A DNA stretch of 48,781 bases from Chloroflexota bacterium (GTDB lineage Bacteria > Chloroflexota > Dehalococcoidia > SZUA-161 > SpSt-899): NCBI GenBank assembly GCA_013203045.1, contig JABMQN010000145.1:1-48781 (forward strand), given 5' to 3'. This document shows positions 17,073-47,739 of the stretch, in pieces (within the stretch, counting starts at the first letter, position 1; each line of letters starts with the position of its first letter). A program made the translations under genes and the position numbers. The notes under the pieces are model-generated. The model was given only the letters and a program-made list of their open reading frames with translations, ran no database searches and was not told the DNA's origin.

Positions 17073-18143
17073 ATGTCAAAAATAGCAGTTGCCATGAGTG
17101 GAGGTGTAGATTCGTCAGTCACTGCCGCTTTATTAAAAGATGAAGGGTACGAAGTTGTCGGTGTGACGATGAGGTTTTGGGAGTGCGAGTATACTGACGA
17201 GGCGTCAATGCCTTTTGATGGTTGTTGTGGTGTACAAGGATTGGCTGATGCCCAGAAAGTATGTTCGATACTGGGCATTCCACATAAGGTTGCAGATATG
17301 CAGCAGATTTTTAAGGATAAGGTGGTAACTGACTTTTATACAGAGTACAGTCGTGGTAGAACCCCAAATCCATGTATCAGGTGCAATGAACATCTGAAGT
17401 TTAGTGCATTCATGGAGTGGGTCCGAAATTTCGGCATCGATCTAATTGCTACGGGACATTATGCCAGAATTGAGGAACACGGTGAAAGGTTCAAACTAAA
17501 AAAGGGTGTTGATGAAAACAAAGACCAATCGTACGTGCTTTATTCTATGAACCAGGAACAACTTGGAAGAACGTTAATGCCATTAGGCGGACTCACTAAA
17601 CAGAAAGTACGTGAGATGGCTGTTGAATTAGGGCTGCCTGTGGCTGAGAAAAAGGATAGTCAGGAAATATGTTTCGTGCCGGATGATGATTACCGTGGAT
17701 TTGTTTCCAGACAGATGCCACACCTTTTGAAGTCAGGTGTTATCAAGGATAGCAATGGCAAGGTTCTGGGTGAGCACAATGGTATAATCAATTACACGAT
17801 CGGGCAGCGGCGTGGTATAGGAATCTCGGCAGATGAGCCTCTGTTTGTGATAGATATTGATGTAGAAACAAATGCCATCGTAGTTGGTTCCAAGCAAGAA
17901 ACCTACGGGAACAAACTTGTCGCTATTGATGTTAACTGGATAAGCATCGAAAATACTGATAATCCGATTAGAGTAAATGCTAAGATTCGATATAATCATC
18001 AGGAAGCACCGGCAACTGTAACCCACATGAGCGATGGAAAGGTTACTGTAACTTTTGAAGAACCTCAAATGGCGATTACCCCAGGACAGGCAGTAGTGTT
18101 CTATCAAGAGGATACGGTTGTAGGGGGCGGAACCATAGAGTGA
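17073..18143 (+). CDS. mnmA: tRNA-specific 2-thiouridylase MnmA
   Basis: 356 aa, the usual length. It makes 2-thiouridine at wobble position 34 of tRNA-Lys, -Glu and -Gln, using ATP to adenylate the base and persulfide sulfur. The PP-loop SGGVDSS (residues 9-15), the catalytic Cys in NPCIRCNEH (C101) and the second catalytic Cys in DSQEICFVPDDDY (C200) are present, as is GATGHYA-like TGHYARI. Two extra cysteines (CC at 51-52) lie in the N-terminal region. It sits between the CoA-binding gene and arsM. 2-thiouridine is also the substrate for selenation of tRNA in organisms with MnmH, but no mnmH is in the window. Confidence 0.97.
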   Translation: MSKIAVAMSGGVDSSVTAALLKDEGYEVVGVTMRFWECEYTDEASMPFDGCCGVQGLADAQKVCSILGIPHKVADMQQIFKDKVVTDFYTEYSRGRTPNPCIRCNEHLKFSAFMEWVRNFGIDLIATGHYARIEEHGERFKLKKGVDENKDQSYVLYSMNQEQLGRTLMPLGGLTKQKVREMAVELGLPVAEKKDSQEICFVPDDDYRGFVSRQMPHLLKSGVIKDSNGKVLGEHNGIINYTIGQRRGIGISADEPLFVIDIDVETNAIVVGSKQETYGNKLVAIDVNWISIENTDNPIRVNAKIRYNHQEAPATVTHMSDGKVTVTFEEPQMAITPGQAVVFYQEDTVVGGGTIE

Positions 18144-18171: not shown

Positions 18172-18939
18172 ATGACCGAGGAAGAGCTAAAAACATTCAT
18201 ACAAGAAGTATATGCCCAAAAAGCCGTTCAGAGTGAACAATTTTATCCCTACTGTTTTGCACCTAAGAGCGCATTGGGAGCTTTCGCTGAAACCGAAGCG
18301 ATGGGATACTCACGAGATGAGTTAGAGAGTATACCCAACGAATCAGTGATGGGATTGGGGTGCGGTAATCCAATAGCGTGGGCTGAGACAAAAGCAGACG
18401 ATTTAGTAATTGATGTGGGTTCCGGTGGGGGCATGGATGTGTTCCTTGCCTCACAGAAAGTTGGACCAAAAGGAAAGGTAATAGGGATAGACATCACCGA
18501 GGAAATGGTAAGCAAGGCACGAACAACGGCAGCTCACTATGGTTACAAAAATGTTGAATTCCGTCTGGGCGGGATAGAGGATATTTCGTTCGAAAGTAAC
18601 TCGGTGGATCATATAATTAGCAACTGTACAATCAATCTGTCACCAAACAAAACAAAGGTTTTAAAAGAGATGTTCAGGGTACTGAAGCCCGGTGGAAAAA
18701 TTGTAATATGCGATAATGTTCTTGAAGAACCGCTCGAAGTAAACAGAGAAGATAACCTTGATGCTTGGACAGATTGTATTGCCGGCGCACTCATAAAACA
18801 GGAATATGTTAGTGCAATAGCTGAAGCAGGATTTGTTGATGTTGCGATTGTTGCGGAGCAGGAATTCAATGCAGGAGAAAAAGACATACCGGTCAATGTT
18901 CTCAGTGTTACTATAAAAGCTCTCAAACCAAGAATCTAG
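18172..18939 (+). CDS. arsM: Arsenite methyltransferase ArsM-like
   Basis: 255 aa class I SAM methyltransferase. The three cysteines that bind As(III) in characterised ArsM enzymes have clear counterparts: C64 (MGLGCGNP), C152 (SNCTINLSP) and C202 (DCIAGAL). The SAM motif is DVGSGGGMDVFLA. ArsM converts arsenite to mono-, di- and trimethylated forms. It lies 28 nt after mnmA and 28 nt before the selenoprotein gene, so it probably belongs to the same operon. No arsR is nearby. Related enzymes may act on other metalloids, so As specificity is not proven. Confidence 0.9.
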   Translation: MTEEELKTFIQEVYAQKAVQSEQFYPYCFAPKSALGAFAETEAMGYSRDELESIPNESVMGLGCGNPIAWAETKADDLVIDVGSGGGMDVFLASQKVGPKGKVIGIDITEEMVSKARTTAAHYGYKNVEFRLGGIEDISFESNSVDHIISNCTINLSPNKTKVLKEMFRVLKPGGKIVICDNVLEEPLEVNREDNLDAWTDCIAGALIKQEYVSAIAEAGFVDVAIVAEQEFNAGEKDIPVNVLSVTIKALKPRI

Positions 18940-18967: not shown

Positions 18968-19594
18968 ATGTGGACAAAAAAGTATATTGCCGCAGTAATT
19001 ATAGTGACAGTAGCTACGTTGAGTGTAGGTCTTGCGTTATGGACCAGCGAGGAAAAACAAGTACTGGACCCTTTCGAAGCCTGGAGTCGAGGTGATGCGG
19101 ATGCTCAAGTCACGCTACATTCTTTCGCAGACTTCACTTGAAGTACCTGTGTTGAGAAAGAGCAGTTGGCTCTGCAGGCGTTGGAAATGTATCCTGGGCA
19201 GGTGAGATTTGTATATCATCATTACCCTTATCATGATGATAATGATTTCTCATGGACGATAGCTGAGGCATTAGAAGCGGCTGGGGCACAGGATATGTTT
19301 TGGGAAATGCACGATCGAATAACTGAGGATGTACCTGAGAATATCGGAGAGATGGAAATTGCTGCACAAGATATTAAAATCCCTGACATTGGCAGGTTTT
19401 TTGAAGAGTTAAATGACAGGGTGTATATGAAAACTGTGGGGGAGGCGATAGAAGAGGCTGAGGCAAACAACGTAAATGAAGTATCCCTATTCGTAGATTT
19501 GGAAGAGTATAGGAAATACCCAGGAAAACTGGAAGACTTGACCAAGATGATTGACGACAGACTCAATGAAATTGTGGAAAATGCTGAGGATTGA
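18968..19594 (+). CDS. DsbA-like thioredoxin-fold selenoprotein (in-frame UGA = Sec58, U-x-x-C)
   Basis: The ATG at 18968 opens a 208-residue frame if the single in-frame TGA at 19139-19141 is read as selenocysteine. Residues 5-26 form a signal anchor. The segment GDADAQVTLHSFADFT-U-STC matches the start of DsbA/thioredoxin_4 proteins (usually ...EFSDFQCPYC), so the TGA falls exactly on the first Cys of the redox motif and gives U58-S-T-C61. The frame continues with family-like sequence (GQVRFVYHHYPYHDDNDFSWTI) to a normal stop. A SECIS-like hairpin follows the TGA. Reading only from downstream would give a truncated protein without the active site. A fresh nonsense mutation is the alternative, but its exact placement argues against it. 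The MauE-like gene 13 nt downstream is a plausible membrane redox partner. Confidence 0.82.
19146..19178 (+). promoter_or_regulatory. Candidate bacterial SECIS element
   Basis: Downstream of the TGA, AGAGC (19159-19163) pairs with GCTCT (19169-19173) around the loop AGTTG, and outer CCTG (19146-19149) pairs with CAGG (19175-19178). The loop has a G at its second position (19165), 23 nt after the TGA. Bacterial SECIS elements are short hairpins about this far downstream with a G early in the apical loop, so position and form fit. The 9-nt/1-nt internal loop is asymmetric and the sequence is not a copy of E. coli fdhF. Confidence 0.65.
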
Positions 19595-19607: not shown

Positions 19608-20066
19608 ATGTCAAAAATATCCCATCCATATATAAACTTGGGATTGCGAGTAGCTGTCGGAGTAATATTCATACTCTCTGCAGTGAGCAAACTTCTTACT
19701 CATACAAAATTCGTAGAGATTGTCCGTGAGTATGACCTGTTGCCCGATGTTCTTGCTTCAACTTATGGAAATACATTGCCCTGGGTTGAGCTGATTGTGG
19801 GGGTATATTTATTGCTGGGAATACTTCGAAGGCCGAGTGCGATAGTTGTATTCCTAATGAGTGTAAGTTTCATGGTTGCTAATATTAGTGCATTGGTAGA
19901 GGGAGAGGAGCATTGTGGGGATTGTTTTGGGGACGTGATTACGCTTACGGCTAACCAGGCTGTCATGCTTGATATATTCATCCTCCTTGCTGCACTAATA
20001 CTGATATTTCCCAGTACGGTTAAACAGATATTCAGTCTTGAGAGTTTTGTTGGTAAAACGAAGTAA
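19608..20066 (+). CDS. MauE/DoxX-family membrane protein
   Basis: 152 aa from the ATG at 19608, preceded by TAGGA; an in-frame GTG at 19551 inside the previous gene is less likely. Four membrane helices are visible (LGLRVAVGVIFILSAVSKLL; LPWVELIVGVYLLLGIL; IVVFLMSVSFMVANISALV; VMLDIFILLAALILIF). Between helices 3 and 4 lies EEHCGDCFGD, the C..C-F-G signature of the MauE-type group. MauE proteins work with thioredoxin-like MauD in disulfide or electron transfer across the membrane. Its place directly after a DsbA-like selenoprotein fits such a pair. Confidence 0.85.
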   Translation: MSKISHPYINLGLRVAVGVIFILSAVSKLLTHTKFVEIVREYDLLPDVLASTYGNTLPWVELIVGVYLLLGILRRPSAIVVFLMSVSFMVANISALVEGEEHCGDCFGDVITLTANQAVMLDIFILLAALILIFPSTVKQIFSLESFVGKTK

Positions 20067-20104: not shown

Positions 20105-20998
20105 ATGAAGAAAATAGACTTCCTCGATTCGAAAACGTGTACTTTGCTGGGTCTGATACTCAATCTGATACTAACATTTTTCAAGCTGTTTGCAGGTATA
20201 TTTGGATTGAGTTATGCCATGATAGCAGATGGGATCCACTCTGCTACAGACACACTGGCCACCGCGACTGCATACGTCGGAATAAGAGTTGGTGAGAAAC
20301 CGGCTGATGAAGACCATCCGTATGGCCATGCGGGTGCGGAAACGGTTGCTGCTTTTGTTGTGGCGTTGATTATCTTAGGTACTGGCATATTTCTGGGAGG
20401 TTCTGCAATACGCCTCATTATTCGTGAAGACTTCGATGCTCCGGGAAACATTGCCCTTATCGCAGCCATAGTTTCAATCTTTGTAAAAGAGGGGATGTTC
20501 AGATATACCATAAAAGTAGGCGAGAATAATAATAGCCCTGCCGTAATTGCCAGTGCTTGGGATCATCGATCGGATGCATATACCTCAGTAGCTGCGCTTA
20601 TCGGAATTATTGGTGCAAAAATCGCTTATATTTACCTCGACCCTATTGCAGGATTGCTTATCTCTGCATTGATAATCTGGATGGCAATAAAACTGCTTCG
20701 TTCTAACATAGGCATATTTATGTATGAAAGACCGGATCCTGATTTTTTAGAGAAGGTTAAAAATACAGCGTGCGCTATAGATGGAGTAAAGGACATTCAT
20801 GATATCAGAGTGCATCGATGTGGTCCAGGTTTAAATGTTGACATAAAAATAGCAGTTAATGAGACTCTGAGCGTAGGAGAGGGCCATCATGTCGCAGGAA
20901 AGGTGAGGTCGGAGCTCTTGTTAAAGATTGAACATGTACGTGAGGTTATGATACATGTAAATCCCTACCAGGGTAACTTGGACGATGACAAAAGCTAA
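20105..20998 (+). CDS. Cation diffusion facilitator transporter, FieF/MamB-like
   Basis: 297 aa, about six membrane helices. Metal-site motifs are DGIHSATD in helix II and WDHRSDAYTS in helix V, which differ from the HxxxD/HxxxD pattern of the CDF at 15614, so the metal preference may differ (Fe2+, Mn2+ or Zn2+). The C-terminal cytoplasmic domain includes VKDIHDIRVHRCGPGLNVDIKI. It follows the mauE-like gene by 38 nt and is probably the last gene of the arsM-selenoprotein operon. Confidence 0.93.
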   Translation: MKKIDFLDSKTCTLLGLILNLILTFFKLFAGIFGLSYAMIADGIHSATDTLATATAYVGIRVGEKPADEDHPYGHAGAETVAAFVVALIILGTGIFLGGSAIRLIIREDFDAPGNIALIAAIVSIFVKEGMFRYTIKVGENNNSPAVIASAWDHRSDAYTSVAALIGIIGAKIAYIYLDPIAGLLISALIIWMAIKLLRSNIGIFMYERPDPDFLEKVKNTACAIDGVKDIHDIRVHRCGPGLNVDIKIAVNETLSVGEGHHVAGKVRSELLLKIEHVREVMIHVNPYQGNLDDDKS

Positions 20999-43632: not shown

Positions 43633-44718
43633 TTAGTTCCGTCTGTGTATTACGTGGACCGCAGTAGCTTTGAACGAAGCAAATAGGTGAGACCCAGTTT
43701 CTAATCCCATCTCCGCCACGGTCTTAGCTGTAACTACCCCAACTAATGGAAATCCGCAGTCGATCTCAATTCTCACCAGTGTACCTACGGGAGTCATTCT
43801 TTTTATAGGGCCTTCGAACGTGTTTCTGGCGCTGGTTGATGTCTTATGCAATGAAAATGTAACATCCTCGGTTCTCACCAGAACCCACACTTTTTCTCCT
43901 TCATCGAAATCTGAAATTGCCTGCAAGACATTTCCGTTTACTTGAATGGTCACGAGACTCTCGTCGACCCTTGCTTCGATAACCCCATCAAGCATATTAC
44001 CCACGCCAACAAAATCGGCTACACGCTTGCGTATGGGAGACCTGAATATTTCTGCCGGTGTCCCCACTTGAAGTATGTCCCCATCGATCAACACACCCAT
44101 TCTGTTGGCCAGCCGTTGGCCCTGGGAGCGGTCATGGGTAGACATAATCATGGTTGTTTGCCTGGCCTCAATTATGTTCTCTAGTATTTCCTCTGTTTGT
44201 TCCGTAGAAATCGGATCCAGATTAGCCGTGGGTTCGTCCAGGAGTAAAAGTTCGGGTTTCGTCACCAGCGCCCGTGCTATGGCTACACGCTGTGTCTCGC
44301 CTCCTGAAAGAGTTTTGGCGTCACGCTTTCTATGATCGGCCAGTCCAACCAAATGAAGTGCTTGTTCTACAGTTTCTTTTATTGATTGCCTCTTGACATG
44401 GCGCCACTTCAGTCCAACAGATACGTTGTCATATACGTTCATACTGAAGACAGTGGGGCGCTGTTGCACATAAGCCATTCGGCGACGGGCTTTGAGTCGT
44501 TCACTTTTGGATTTGGTAACATCAATACCATCGAATAGTATTCGACCAGAAACAGGTTGATCCAGCAGATCAATCAATCGGAGTATCGTTGTTTTGCCAG
44601 CTCCTGTAGGTCCAATCAGAGCGAAAACATCTCCTTTTTCGATGTTTAGATTCACCGATTTGAGACTATAGCTATCTTTAAACTGTTGTTGTAGATCGAT
44701 TACTTCCAATAGTGCCAT
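43633..44718 (-). CDS. tupC: Tungstate/molybdate ABC transporter ATP-binding protein
   Basis: 361 aa. Walker A GPTGAGKTT, Q-loop AYVQQRP, signature [15 protein letters not shown] and Walker B LLLLDEPTANLD are complete. The C-terminal third (VGVGNMLDGVIEARVDESLV... VLVRTEDVTFSL...) is a TOBE-like regulatory region seen in molybdate and tungstate importers. It overlaps the permease gene by 19 nt and is the last gene of tupABC. Assignment to tungstate rests on the TupA-like binding protein. Confidence 0.9.
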   Translation of the reverse strand: MALLEVIDLQQQFKDSYSLKSVNLNIEKGDVFALIGPTGAGKTTILRLIDLLDQPVSGRILFDGIDVTKSKSERLKARRRMAYVQQRPTVFSMNVYDNVSVGLKWRHVKRQSIKETVEQALHLVGLADHRKRDAKTLSGGETQRVAIARALVTKPELLLLDEPTANLDPISTEQTEEILENIIEARQTTMIMSTHDRSQGQRLANRMGVLIDGDILQVGTPAEIFRSPIRKRVADFVGVGNMLDGVIEARVDESLVTIQVNGNVLQAISDFDEGEKVWVLVRTEDVTFSLHKTSTSARNTFEGPIKRMTPVGTLVRIEIDCGFPLVGVVTAKTVAEMGLETGSHLFASFKATAVHVIHRRN

Positions 44719-45416
44719 GGTAATTTCCTGTACTGTAATGATAGTAATGCAAAATTAATGACGAATGCTAATAAAATCAGAATGATTCCGAGGGCCAGCG
44801 CAAGTTCACGTTCACCCTTTGATGTTTCCAGTGCAATTGCAGTGGTGAGGGTACGGGTGAATTCTCGGATGTTACCGCCGACCATCATAGATACTCCCAC
44901 TTCCGATACAGCTCGTCCGAATCCCATCACCAGGGCGGTGAGTATCCCAAACTTCGCTTCGCGAATGCAGATAATGTATGTTTGAAATCTACTTGCCCCC
45001 AAAGCTGTGGCAGTTTCAGGGATTGCTTTATCAATGGCATTGAGGGCGGATATTACAAGTCCCAGCATTACGGGGGTAATCAACAATGTTTGGCCGAAGA
45101 CAATTGCTGCTGGTGTCAGATACCATTCGAGGTCGCCAAAAGGCCCACTTCGTGATAATAGCGTGTAGGTGATCAAGCCCACTGCCACAGCAGGCATGGC
45201 GAATAGCGTTTGAATGGTGCTAATAACCAATCGCTTGCCGGGAAATCGGTTGAAATGGATTAGAGTCCCCAACGGTAAAGCGATCAGAAAAAACGCTATG
45301 GTACTGGAGGACGCTGCAAGCTGCAGCGACCTCCAGGTAATTTCCATAACCTCGGGGTCAAGCGTTCGAATCAGGCGTAAGGCCTCAACGAATGCATCCC
45401 AAAAACTGTTCTCCAA
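44700..45416 (-). CDS. tupB: Tungstate ABC transporter permease
   Basis: 238 aa, five to six membrane helices of the BinTP-dependent permease fold. The EAA loop is seen as ETATALGASRFQTYIICIREAKFGILTALVMGFGRAVSEVGVSMMVGGNI, and its AVSEVGVSMMVGGN end is typical of TupB/WtpB. It lies 17 nt after tupA and overlaps tupC by 19 nt. Confidence 0.92.
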   Translation of the reverse strand: MENSFWDAFVEALRLIRTLDPEVMEITWRSLQLAASSSTIAFFLIALPLGTLIHFNRFPGKRLVISTIQTLFAMPAVAVGLITYTLLSRSGPFGDLEWYLTPAAIVFGQTLLITPVMLGLVISALNAIDKAIPETATALGASRFQTYIICIREAKFGILTALVMGFGRAVSEVGVSMMVGGNIREFTRTLTTAIALETSKGERELALALGIILILLAFVINFALLSLQYRKLPWHYWK

Positions 45417-45433
45417 ATTATCCTATTACCTTT

Positions 45434-46339
45434 CTAATTGTTACAGGGCGCTATGGGTCCGGCACAGGGGGTAAACAGAGCCATCCCGTATTCCTCAAAA
45501 CCAAAGTTACCCATTATGTGCTGAATCTCATCGGAGGTGAGGAAGTCGACTAGTTTTTGAGCTGCCTGCGGCATTTCGGTATTAGTCCCAACGATAATCG
45601 AATACACGTTCAGCAGGGTATCGCCCTCATCGACAATGGGTACCAATTCAAGGTCGCCCTTATAAGATAGATAAGTTCCTGCGTCGGTCAGGGTGTAACC
45701 TTGCTTTTCATCAGCCATAACCAAAGTAGCGCCCATGCCACTTCCGGCCTCGAGGTACCAACTGCCGGCACTTTGGACATCTTCGTATTCATATCCGGCA
45801 TTGGCCCAAATGGTTTTCTCCTTGCCATGTGTTCCGGAGTCATCACCACGGGAAACGAAGGTTCCGGCTTCCGATCCGAATAAAGTCTTGAAAGCGTCTT
45901 CAGGGGACATGCCTCTGATGCCTGCGGGATCATCTTCAGGCCCTACAATTAAGAAGTAATTATAAGCGAAAGGGATTCGCTCTAAACCGTATCCTTCGTC
46001 AACGTATTCAATTTCCCGTGCTTTTGAGTGAACCGTTATCACATCCACATCCCCATTTCGGCCATATTCCAGAGCGATACCGGTGCCGACTGCCACGATG
46101 TCGAGATCGACATCATTCTGCTCCTCAAACAAAGGTTCGAGTGTTTCCCACAGACCGGTATTGTCCAGGCTGGTAGTTGTGGCTACCTTTAGCCGCCCCG
46201 ATTCTCCATTGGTTGGTTCAACCTCTGTTGAAGCTGTTACCGGGCTTTCAGTATCATCAGAATCGCATGCAATGGAGGCACTGCCCAACAGTAACATTAC
46301 TCCTATAATTAAGAGATTAGTTATCAAGCTGTTTTTCAT
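45434..46339 (-). CDS. tupA: Tungstate-binding lipoprotein TupA
   Basis: 301 aa from the ATG at 46339, which has AAGGAGA 4 nt upstream; an in-frame start at 46444 is rejected because it lacks one and the signal peptide fits the shorter form. Lipobox SASIAC gives Cys25. The TupA signature TTTSLDNTGLWETLEPLFEE, VAVGTGIALEYGRNGDVDVITVHS is clear (TTS and the GDVDV..VH block bind the oxyanion). It delivers tungstate, or molybdate, to TupBC. A riboswitch candidate and a 25-codon ORF precede it. Confidence 0.93.
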   Translation of the reverse strand: MKNSLITNLLIIGVMLLLGSASIACDSDDTESPVTASTEVEPTNGESGRLKVATTTSLDNTGLWETLEPLFEEQNDVDLDIVAVGTGIALEYGRNGDVDVITVHSKAREIEYVDEGYGLERIPFAYNYFLIVGPEDDPAGIRGMSPEDAFKTLFGSEAGTFVSRGDDSGTHGKEKTIWANAGYEYEDVQSAGSWYLEAGSGMGATLVMADEKQGYTLTDAGTYLSYKGDLELVPIVDEGDTLLNVYSIIVGTNTEMPQAAQKLVDFLTSDEIQHIMGNFGFEEYGMALFTPCAGPIAPCNN

Positions 46340-46385
46340 CGTTCTCCTTTTCTTTTTCAAACCTGTTGTAGTTCTCAAGAGCTTC

Positions 46386-46463
46386 TCATGGAGGAGACCG
46401 TGAGACTGAAGAACACTGATTTTCACACGCGTAAATAAAGACATACAGATTCTGTTTTTTCAT
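46386..46463 (-). CDS. Putative 25-aa leader peptide before tupA
   Basis: An ATG at 46463 follows AAAAGGAG by 6 nt, the best ribosome binding site in the leader. The frame reads MKKQNLYVFIYACENQCSSV and five more residues, then TGA, ending 46 nt before the tupA ATG. The ribosome binding site is also the 3' edge of the riboswitch-like fold. Translation of this ORF may therefore respond to the cofactor and influence tupA. No homologue is known to me. Confidence 0.45.
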   Translation of the reverse strand: MKKQNLYVFIYACENQCSSVSRSPP

Positions 46464-46466
46464 ATT

Positions 46467-46560
46467 ATCTCCTTTTCAATCACGGAAGGCACCGACGTTT
46501 CCATCGATACCCTATCGTCCATTTTCCGTAGCTAATGCCGTAGGATAAATGGCTCGGAGA
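46467..46560 (-). promoter_or_regulatory. Moco/Wco-type riboswitch candidate B, upstream of tupA
   Basis: On the minus strand the segment starts CUCCGAGCC, continues with a compact fold including GAUAGGG, a stem AUCGAU/GUCGGU around GGAAAC, then GCCUUCCGUGAUUGAAAAGG and a ribosome binding site. The order matches the end of the E. coli moaA Moco riboswitch (AGGGCG, stem with an A-rich loop, GCCUCCCGU, UGGAAAGG, ATG). An outer stem ACGGAA/TTCCGT is also possible. It has a shorter internal part than candidate A, as described for tungsten-cofactor variants lacking stem P3. The tungstate-transport gene downstream fits. Confidence 0.6.
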
Positions 46561-46584
46561 ATCGGTTATTCTATTGTAGAACCA

Positions 46585-47482: not shown

Positions 47483-47503
47483 TTATGATTCTCTTGTTTC
47501 CAT
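47483..47503 (-). CDS. Six-codon mini-ORF (METRES) at the end of riboswitch A
   Basis: AAAGGAG (plus-strand 47512-47518) lies about 8 nt before an ATG at 47503, followed by GAA ACA AGA GAA TCA and TAA. The ribosome binding site is part of the riboswitch 3' strand, as in E. coli moaA, but here it serves only six codons before the terminator. Its translation may couple ligand sensing to termination. Confidence 0.4.
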   Translation of the reverse strand: METRES

Positions 47504-47642
47504 TTGCACTCTCCTTTCCAACCGTGGGAGGTGTGAGTATTTCTGCTCACGCCCTCGGGACTTTACGTCCACCGTCTGTTTACCTTGTCCTTCTGGAATC
47601 CTTCCGGAGGGATTTAGGCACAACAGCTCGAAGAGCTATTTA
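47500..47642 (-). promoter_or_regulatory. Moco/Wco-type riboswitch candidate A, upstream of the methyltransferase
   Basis: Minus strand, 5' to 3': hairpin AGCUC/GAGCU, GUGCC (47622-47618), hairpin AAUCC/GGAUU, ACAAGGUAAAC, GGACGUAAAGUCC, GAGGGCGUGAG, loop CAGAAAUA, CUCACACCUCCC, then GGUUGGAAAGGAG and ATGG. The E. coli moaA Moco riboswitch, as I recall it, has CGUAAAG, AGGGCG, a stem with loop GAAGAAAUGA, GCCUCCC, UGGAAAGG and ATGG in this order and spacing. The match includes unpaired bases, so chance is unlikely. The extra AAUCC/GGAUU hairpin may be the P3 stem of the molybdenum form. Confidence 0.8.
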
Positions 47643-47739
47643 TTATTTTTCCGAATATATGTTACAGGAAACTAGACGTGCAGGTCAACATATCAAATCG
47701 GTTGAAAGAAGGGGGAAGGTGTAGTTGTTGATGGAAAAG

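Follow-up and report, generated by a model that had tools for sequence, protein, structure and literature searches.

An open reading frame of 208 codons (18968–19594, + strand) in the 48,781-nt stretch of DNA from an uncultured Chloroflexota bacterium analyzed here, referred to as the window, is split by an in-frame TGA, which raises the question of whether the gene is broken or encodes a selenoprotein, and what such a protein would do. The frame starts at ATG 18968, ends with a terminal TGA at 19592–19594, and holds its sole internal TGA at 19139–19141 (residue 58), exactly where a thioredoxin-type CxxC site would have its first Cys. The initial annotation had proposed this placement, and both the frame check and the homologue alignment agreed with it. 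Read as selenocysteine (U58) by homologue alignment, the codon becomes residue 1 of a U-S-T-C site, with C61 encoded at 19148–19150 (+). The conventional downstream ORF begins only at TTG 19166, and gene calling thus loses the first ~66 codons, as had been anticipated. Genome-wide reassignment of TGA was ruled out, as TGA also terminates this gene and occurs in frame just once within it. Leaky termination yielding two proteins, of which the short C-terminal one started at TTG 19166 would be the product, is scarcely credible: that ORF is present, but its protein would have neither active site nor membrane anchor and would miss the first strand, and all three orthologs (the window gene and its counterparts in genomes G003 and G036) conserve the part upstream of it.

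The assignment of the 208-aa product with Sec58 to the DsbA-like (Thioredoxin_4) proteins was based on the ORF, Pfam, the orthologs, and a structural model. Family-like sequence had been noted on both sides of the TGA, and the Thioredoxin_4 match (PF13462) spans residues 41–197 with an E value of 2.7e-19 and 70.4 bits against a gathering cut-off of 23.2. It is preceded by an N-terminal membrane helix at residues 4–25. The AlphaFold model, built with 58 homologues, reached a mean pLDDT of 91 across the 208 residues, and its fold runs unbroken across the TGA. Both a helical insertion in the thioredoxin fold and a structural match to DsbA/BdbD were present in the model, with TsdA/DsbA of C. diphtheriae and BdbD of B. 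subtilis as the closest solved structures (TM 0.68–0.70, 18–26% identity). Both of these proteins use Cys, and the aligned TsdA/DsbA sequence keeps the cis-proline.

A search among relatives gave numerous DsbA-like genes, a number of them with a single TGA. The alignment had 103 homologue rows, some loci being represented by overlapping copies; opposite U58, it showed Cys in 63, Sec (TGA) in 39, and Ser in 1, in line with the expectation of Cys or Sec at this position. Duplicate removal left 29 distinct TGA sequences. The closest Sec relative belongs to G003, a genome of the same bacterial family; it retains the TGA within FT-U-HIC and shares ~45% identity with the window protein, as does the ortholog of G036 from another family, which carries TGT in LCPEC. 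Where the window and G003 proteins have identical residues, the codon is kept in just 30 of 87 cases, and synonymous codons are mostly scrambled. In a metagenome-type assembly, a lone TGA usually points to a pseudogene or a sequencing error, in which case the codon would be a real stop and the gene broken. This reading is highly improbable here, as an independent genome whose protein is 45% identical has its TGA in that very codon, the position is exactly that of the catalytic Cys, the gene shows no other lesion, and the source genome encodes Sec machinery. A miscalled sense codon at 19139–19141, named in the initial annotation as a possible refutation, is likewise discounted because a second genome from this family of bacteria carries the TGA as well.

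A bSECIS-like hairpin, AGAGC-AGUUG-GCUCU, lies at 19159–19173 (+), with 5 bp in the stem and G at position 2 of the 5-nt AGUUG loop. The hairpin had been described as 23 nt downstream of the TGA with an early loop G; the G was found as described, while the distance was close but not exact, the stem starting 17 nt and the loop 22 nt downstream. Taken alone, the window hairpin was no more stable than expected by chance (z −0.70; synonymous shuffles, p 0.10), and an Rfam search of the hairpin region returned no family and chance-level matches only. The comparative test supports the hairpin, and it is therefore retained as a SECIS candidate on this ground and not on its own stability. The G003 gene carries the same hairpin, and codons at residues identical between the two genes are the same in 5 of 5 cases inside the hairpin and in 25 of 82 elsewhere (Fisher p 0.004). 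Mean hairpin energies were −8.7 kcal/mol for 29 Sec genes and −1.6 kcal/mol for 58 Cys genes (Mann-Whitney p 2e-11), with combined synonymous-shuffle p-values of 5e-12 and 0.999, respectively, values that overstate independence because the genes compared are related. When genomes with tandem arrays of such genes (see below) were excluded, 14 Sec against 58 Cys genes still gave p 2e-7, and the combined shuffle p was 7e-5. SECIS-like hairpins mark the TGA homologues and are absent from the Cys homologues.

The Sec machinery (selA, selB, selC, and selD) was sought in the source genome, which comprises 277 contigs at 92.6% completeness and 4% contamination, and all four were found. Profile searches recovered SelA (474 bits), SelB (387 bits), and SelD (384 bits), the last by TGA read-through, as it has its own in-frame TGA at the active site (SG-U-ASK), and ARAGORN identified a tRNA-Sec with anticodon TCA. 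These genes lie on contigs other than that of the window and are tied to it by binning only. The SelD of the source genome (L067; G000 C228) is thus a selenoprotein itself, and a YedF-like gene follows it. In G003, SelA and tRNA-Sec were found along with a SelB fragment running off a contig edge, and an apparent absence of SelB from this genome was dropped accordingly. G036 has SelA, SelB, and tRNA-Sec, yet its ortholog uses Cys; the choice between Sec and Cys is therefore not set by the machinery alone. A further TGA-bearing homologue (L088, genome G173) was found with a good hairpin and tRNA-Sec, while searches for SelA and SelB in this 88% complete genome recovered neither. It is very probable that the 208-codon gene is a genuine selenoprotein of DsbA-like redox nature, in which we infer the insertion of Sec.

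DsbA-like UxxC selenoproteins were described from the Sargasso Sea in 2005 (PMC1088965), and a 2026 review lists a “DsbA-like protein form 1” under PF01323 (PMC13188914). The window protein shares with this family the DsbA-like thioredoxin fold, the U-x-x-C site, a bacterial SECIS-like hairpin, and widespread Cys homologues, but its branch has its best match in Thioredoxin_4 (PF13462), carries a membrane anchor, is MauE-paired, and has no cis-proline. Across 400 phylum and 393 class genomes, two samples that partly overlap, only the window gene and the G003 and G036 orthologs scored above 350 bits, with the next best at ~100. The three form one fully supported branch in the tree, whose stem measures 1.18 changes per site. 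The Sec label requires 11 changes by parsimony, of which at least 6 are forced, and swaps between Sec and Cys have therefore occurred repeatedly. This branch of two Sec and one Cys members is a new subfamily, while the UxxC DsbA-like kind itself is not new. The suggestion that a Sec-containing DsbA-like protein paired with MauE is rare in this lineage accordingly stands for the MauE-paired branch but not for UxxC DsbA-like proteins as such, with 29 distinct sequences in Chloroflexota. The best NCBIfam match of the window protein was NF041057 (Rcas_1661 family thioredoxin-like (seleno)lipoprotein), whose members carry Sec or Cys; membership was rejected at 43.4 bits against a cut-off of 190, and no lipobox was seen.

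Other UxxC DsbA-like genes were also encountered. Up to four different UxxC DsbA-like lipoprotein genes stand in tandem at L059, L060, and L065 (G088, G102, and G037, respectively; also in G116, G129, and G139), in arrays that are conserved within one genus. Long hairpins of the type GCGGCUC-AGG-UUGAGCCGC follow most of these genes, and their proteins are related to NF041057 at scores below its cut-off (87–141 bits of 190). The arrays are possibly more novel than the MauE-paired gene. At L050, L071, L072, and L073, the UxxC DsbA-like domain appeared by eye to be fused to a cyclophilin-type prolyl isomerase-like domain, and Cys versions of this fusion were seen at L074, L089, and L095.

A MauE family membrane protein is encoded 13 nt downstream of the DsbA-like gene (19608–20066, +), with a Pfam score of 78 bits for PF07291 against a gathering cut-off of 27, ~4 hydrophobic segments, and a C103-G-D-C106-F-G motif. 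MauE is the next gene in all three orthologs (window, G003, and G036). In addition, a single 395-aa ORF in another genome of the phylum (G219; L076:1417–2601, −) contains MauE followed by Thioredoxin_4, and this natural fusion is a strong sign that the two act jointly. With most loci searched within a flank of ~1500 bases, MauE was found close by only in the three orthologs and the L076 fusion and is not a family-wide neighbor. MauE is probably the functional partner of the DsbA-like selenoprotein and would be its likely redox partner. The MauD/MauE pair serves methylamine dehydrogenase maturation and likewise places a thioredoxin-like protein beside MauE, but the oxidoreductase of the window is DsbA-like and Sec-using, and methylamine dehydrogenase genes were not recognised in the window. 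A literature search for MauE-paired selenoproteins, or for MauE with DsbA, MauD, or arsenic, found nothing relevant within a coverage that excludes many journals.

The gene 28 nt upstream of the DsbA-like gene encodes an arsenite methyltransferase of the ArsM type (18172–18939, +; NCBIfam NF008823, 270.8 bits, cut-off 263), and 28 nt before it lies a gene that, from its sequence, we take to be an MnmA-like tRNA thiolase (17073–18143, +) and that possibly starts the same transcription unit. Downstream of MauE, the Pfam scan identified a cation efflux (CDF) transporter (20105–20998, +). The ortholog pair of G036 is set among ACR3, ArsG, ArsF, and an ArsR-type regulator (the last assigned by eye), and the L076 fusion is followed by genes for an ArsR-family regulator and a heavy-metal-domain protein. 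No arsenic genes were seen near the G003 locus, so the arsenic link draws on 2 of 3 ortholog loci and the L076 fusion. These gene neighbors are suggestive of a role of the DsbA-like/MauE pair in arsenic or metal (metalloid) stress, which we put forward tentatively. Elsewhere in the window, two Moco/tungsten riboswitches were present at 46453–46571 and 47495–47645 (−), near a likely tungstate/molybdate ABC transporter (43633–46444) and a methyltransferase-like gene.

At the site where relatives have T-(cis)P-T, the window protein reads E171-V172-S173 (19478–19486, +) and has no cis-proline. The residues replacing T-P are Val/Ser in the window protein, where the cis-proline position reads Val or Ser depending on gap placement, Val/Ala in G003, and Val/Ser in G036, while proline is present in the other 55 rows. 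A cis-proline before strand 3 is typical of the thioredoxin fold and does not define PF13462, and membership in this family therefore stands. The loss is confined to the branch of the three orthologs, from which the usual CPxC residues are gone too, but G036 keeps CPEC. According to work cited in PMC2757866, the cis-proline is thought to shield active-site thiols from metals. For the window protein, we infer its effect: the loss of the cis-proline and of the residues usual in CPxC suggests that it acts on a narrower range of substrates and not in general disulfide formation.

The protein would be a membrane-anchored, outward-facing thiol-disulfide oxidoreductase with a U58-S-T-C61 site, in which UGA-58 would be decoded as selenocysteine by SelB and tRNA-Sec, aided by the hairpin just downstream. 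Paired with the small membrane protein MauE, its U-x-x-C site would most likely be re-oxidised (or reduced) by the MauE Cys pair between the last two membrane segments, much as DsbB or VKOR acts on DsbA. Judged by the neighbors, the most likely setting would be extracytoplasmic defence against arsenic or other soft metals. The protein could instead be a genuine selenoprotein that serves as a general extracytoplasmic disulfide catalyst like BdbD/DsbA, with MauE as the DsbB analogue and the arsenic neighbors coincidental. This reading is a serious contender that falls somewhat short of probable: the nearest folds, TsdA/DsbA and BdbD, are general oxidants, and the G003 copy lies away from ars genes, but the losses at the cis-proline and CPxC sites are specific to this branch, arsenic genes adjoin two of the three loci, and metal genes adjoin the fusion. 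A more specific form of the arsenic/metal reading, an unlikely one as it stands, is a cis-proline-free, MauE-coupled selenoenzyme acting outside the cytoplasm on arsenic, soft metals, or metal-blocked protein thiols, whose selenolate-thiolate pair would bind the metalloid through the open site and be reset by MauE via the quinone pool.

Standard annotation would break the window gene and no fewer than 28 further DsbA-like genes of this analysis, and exported selenoproteins of Chloroflexota are therefore probably undercounted. The branch of the three orthologs provides a natural swap between Sec and Cys within one conserved gene pair and is useful for asking what Sec buys. The loss of the cis-proline together with the metal-gene neighborhood offers a testable idea about MauE partners.
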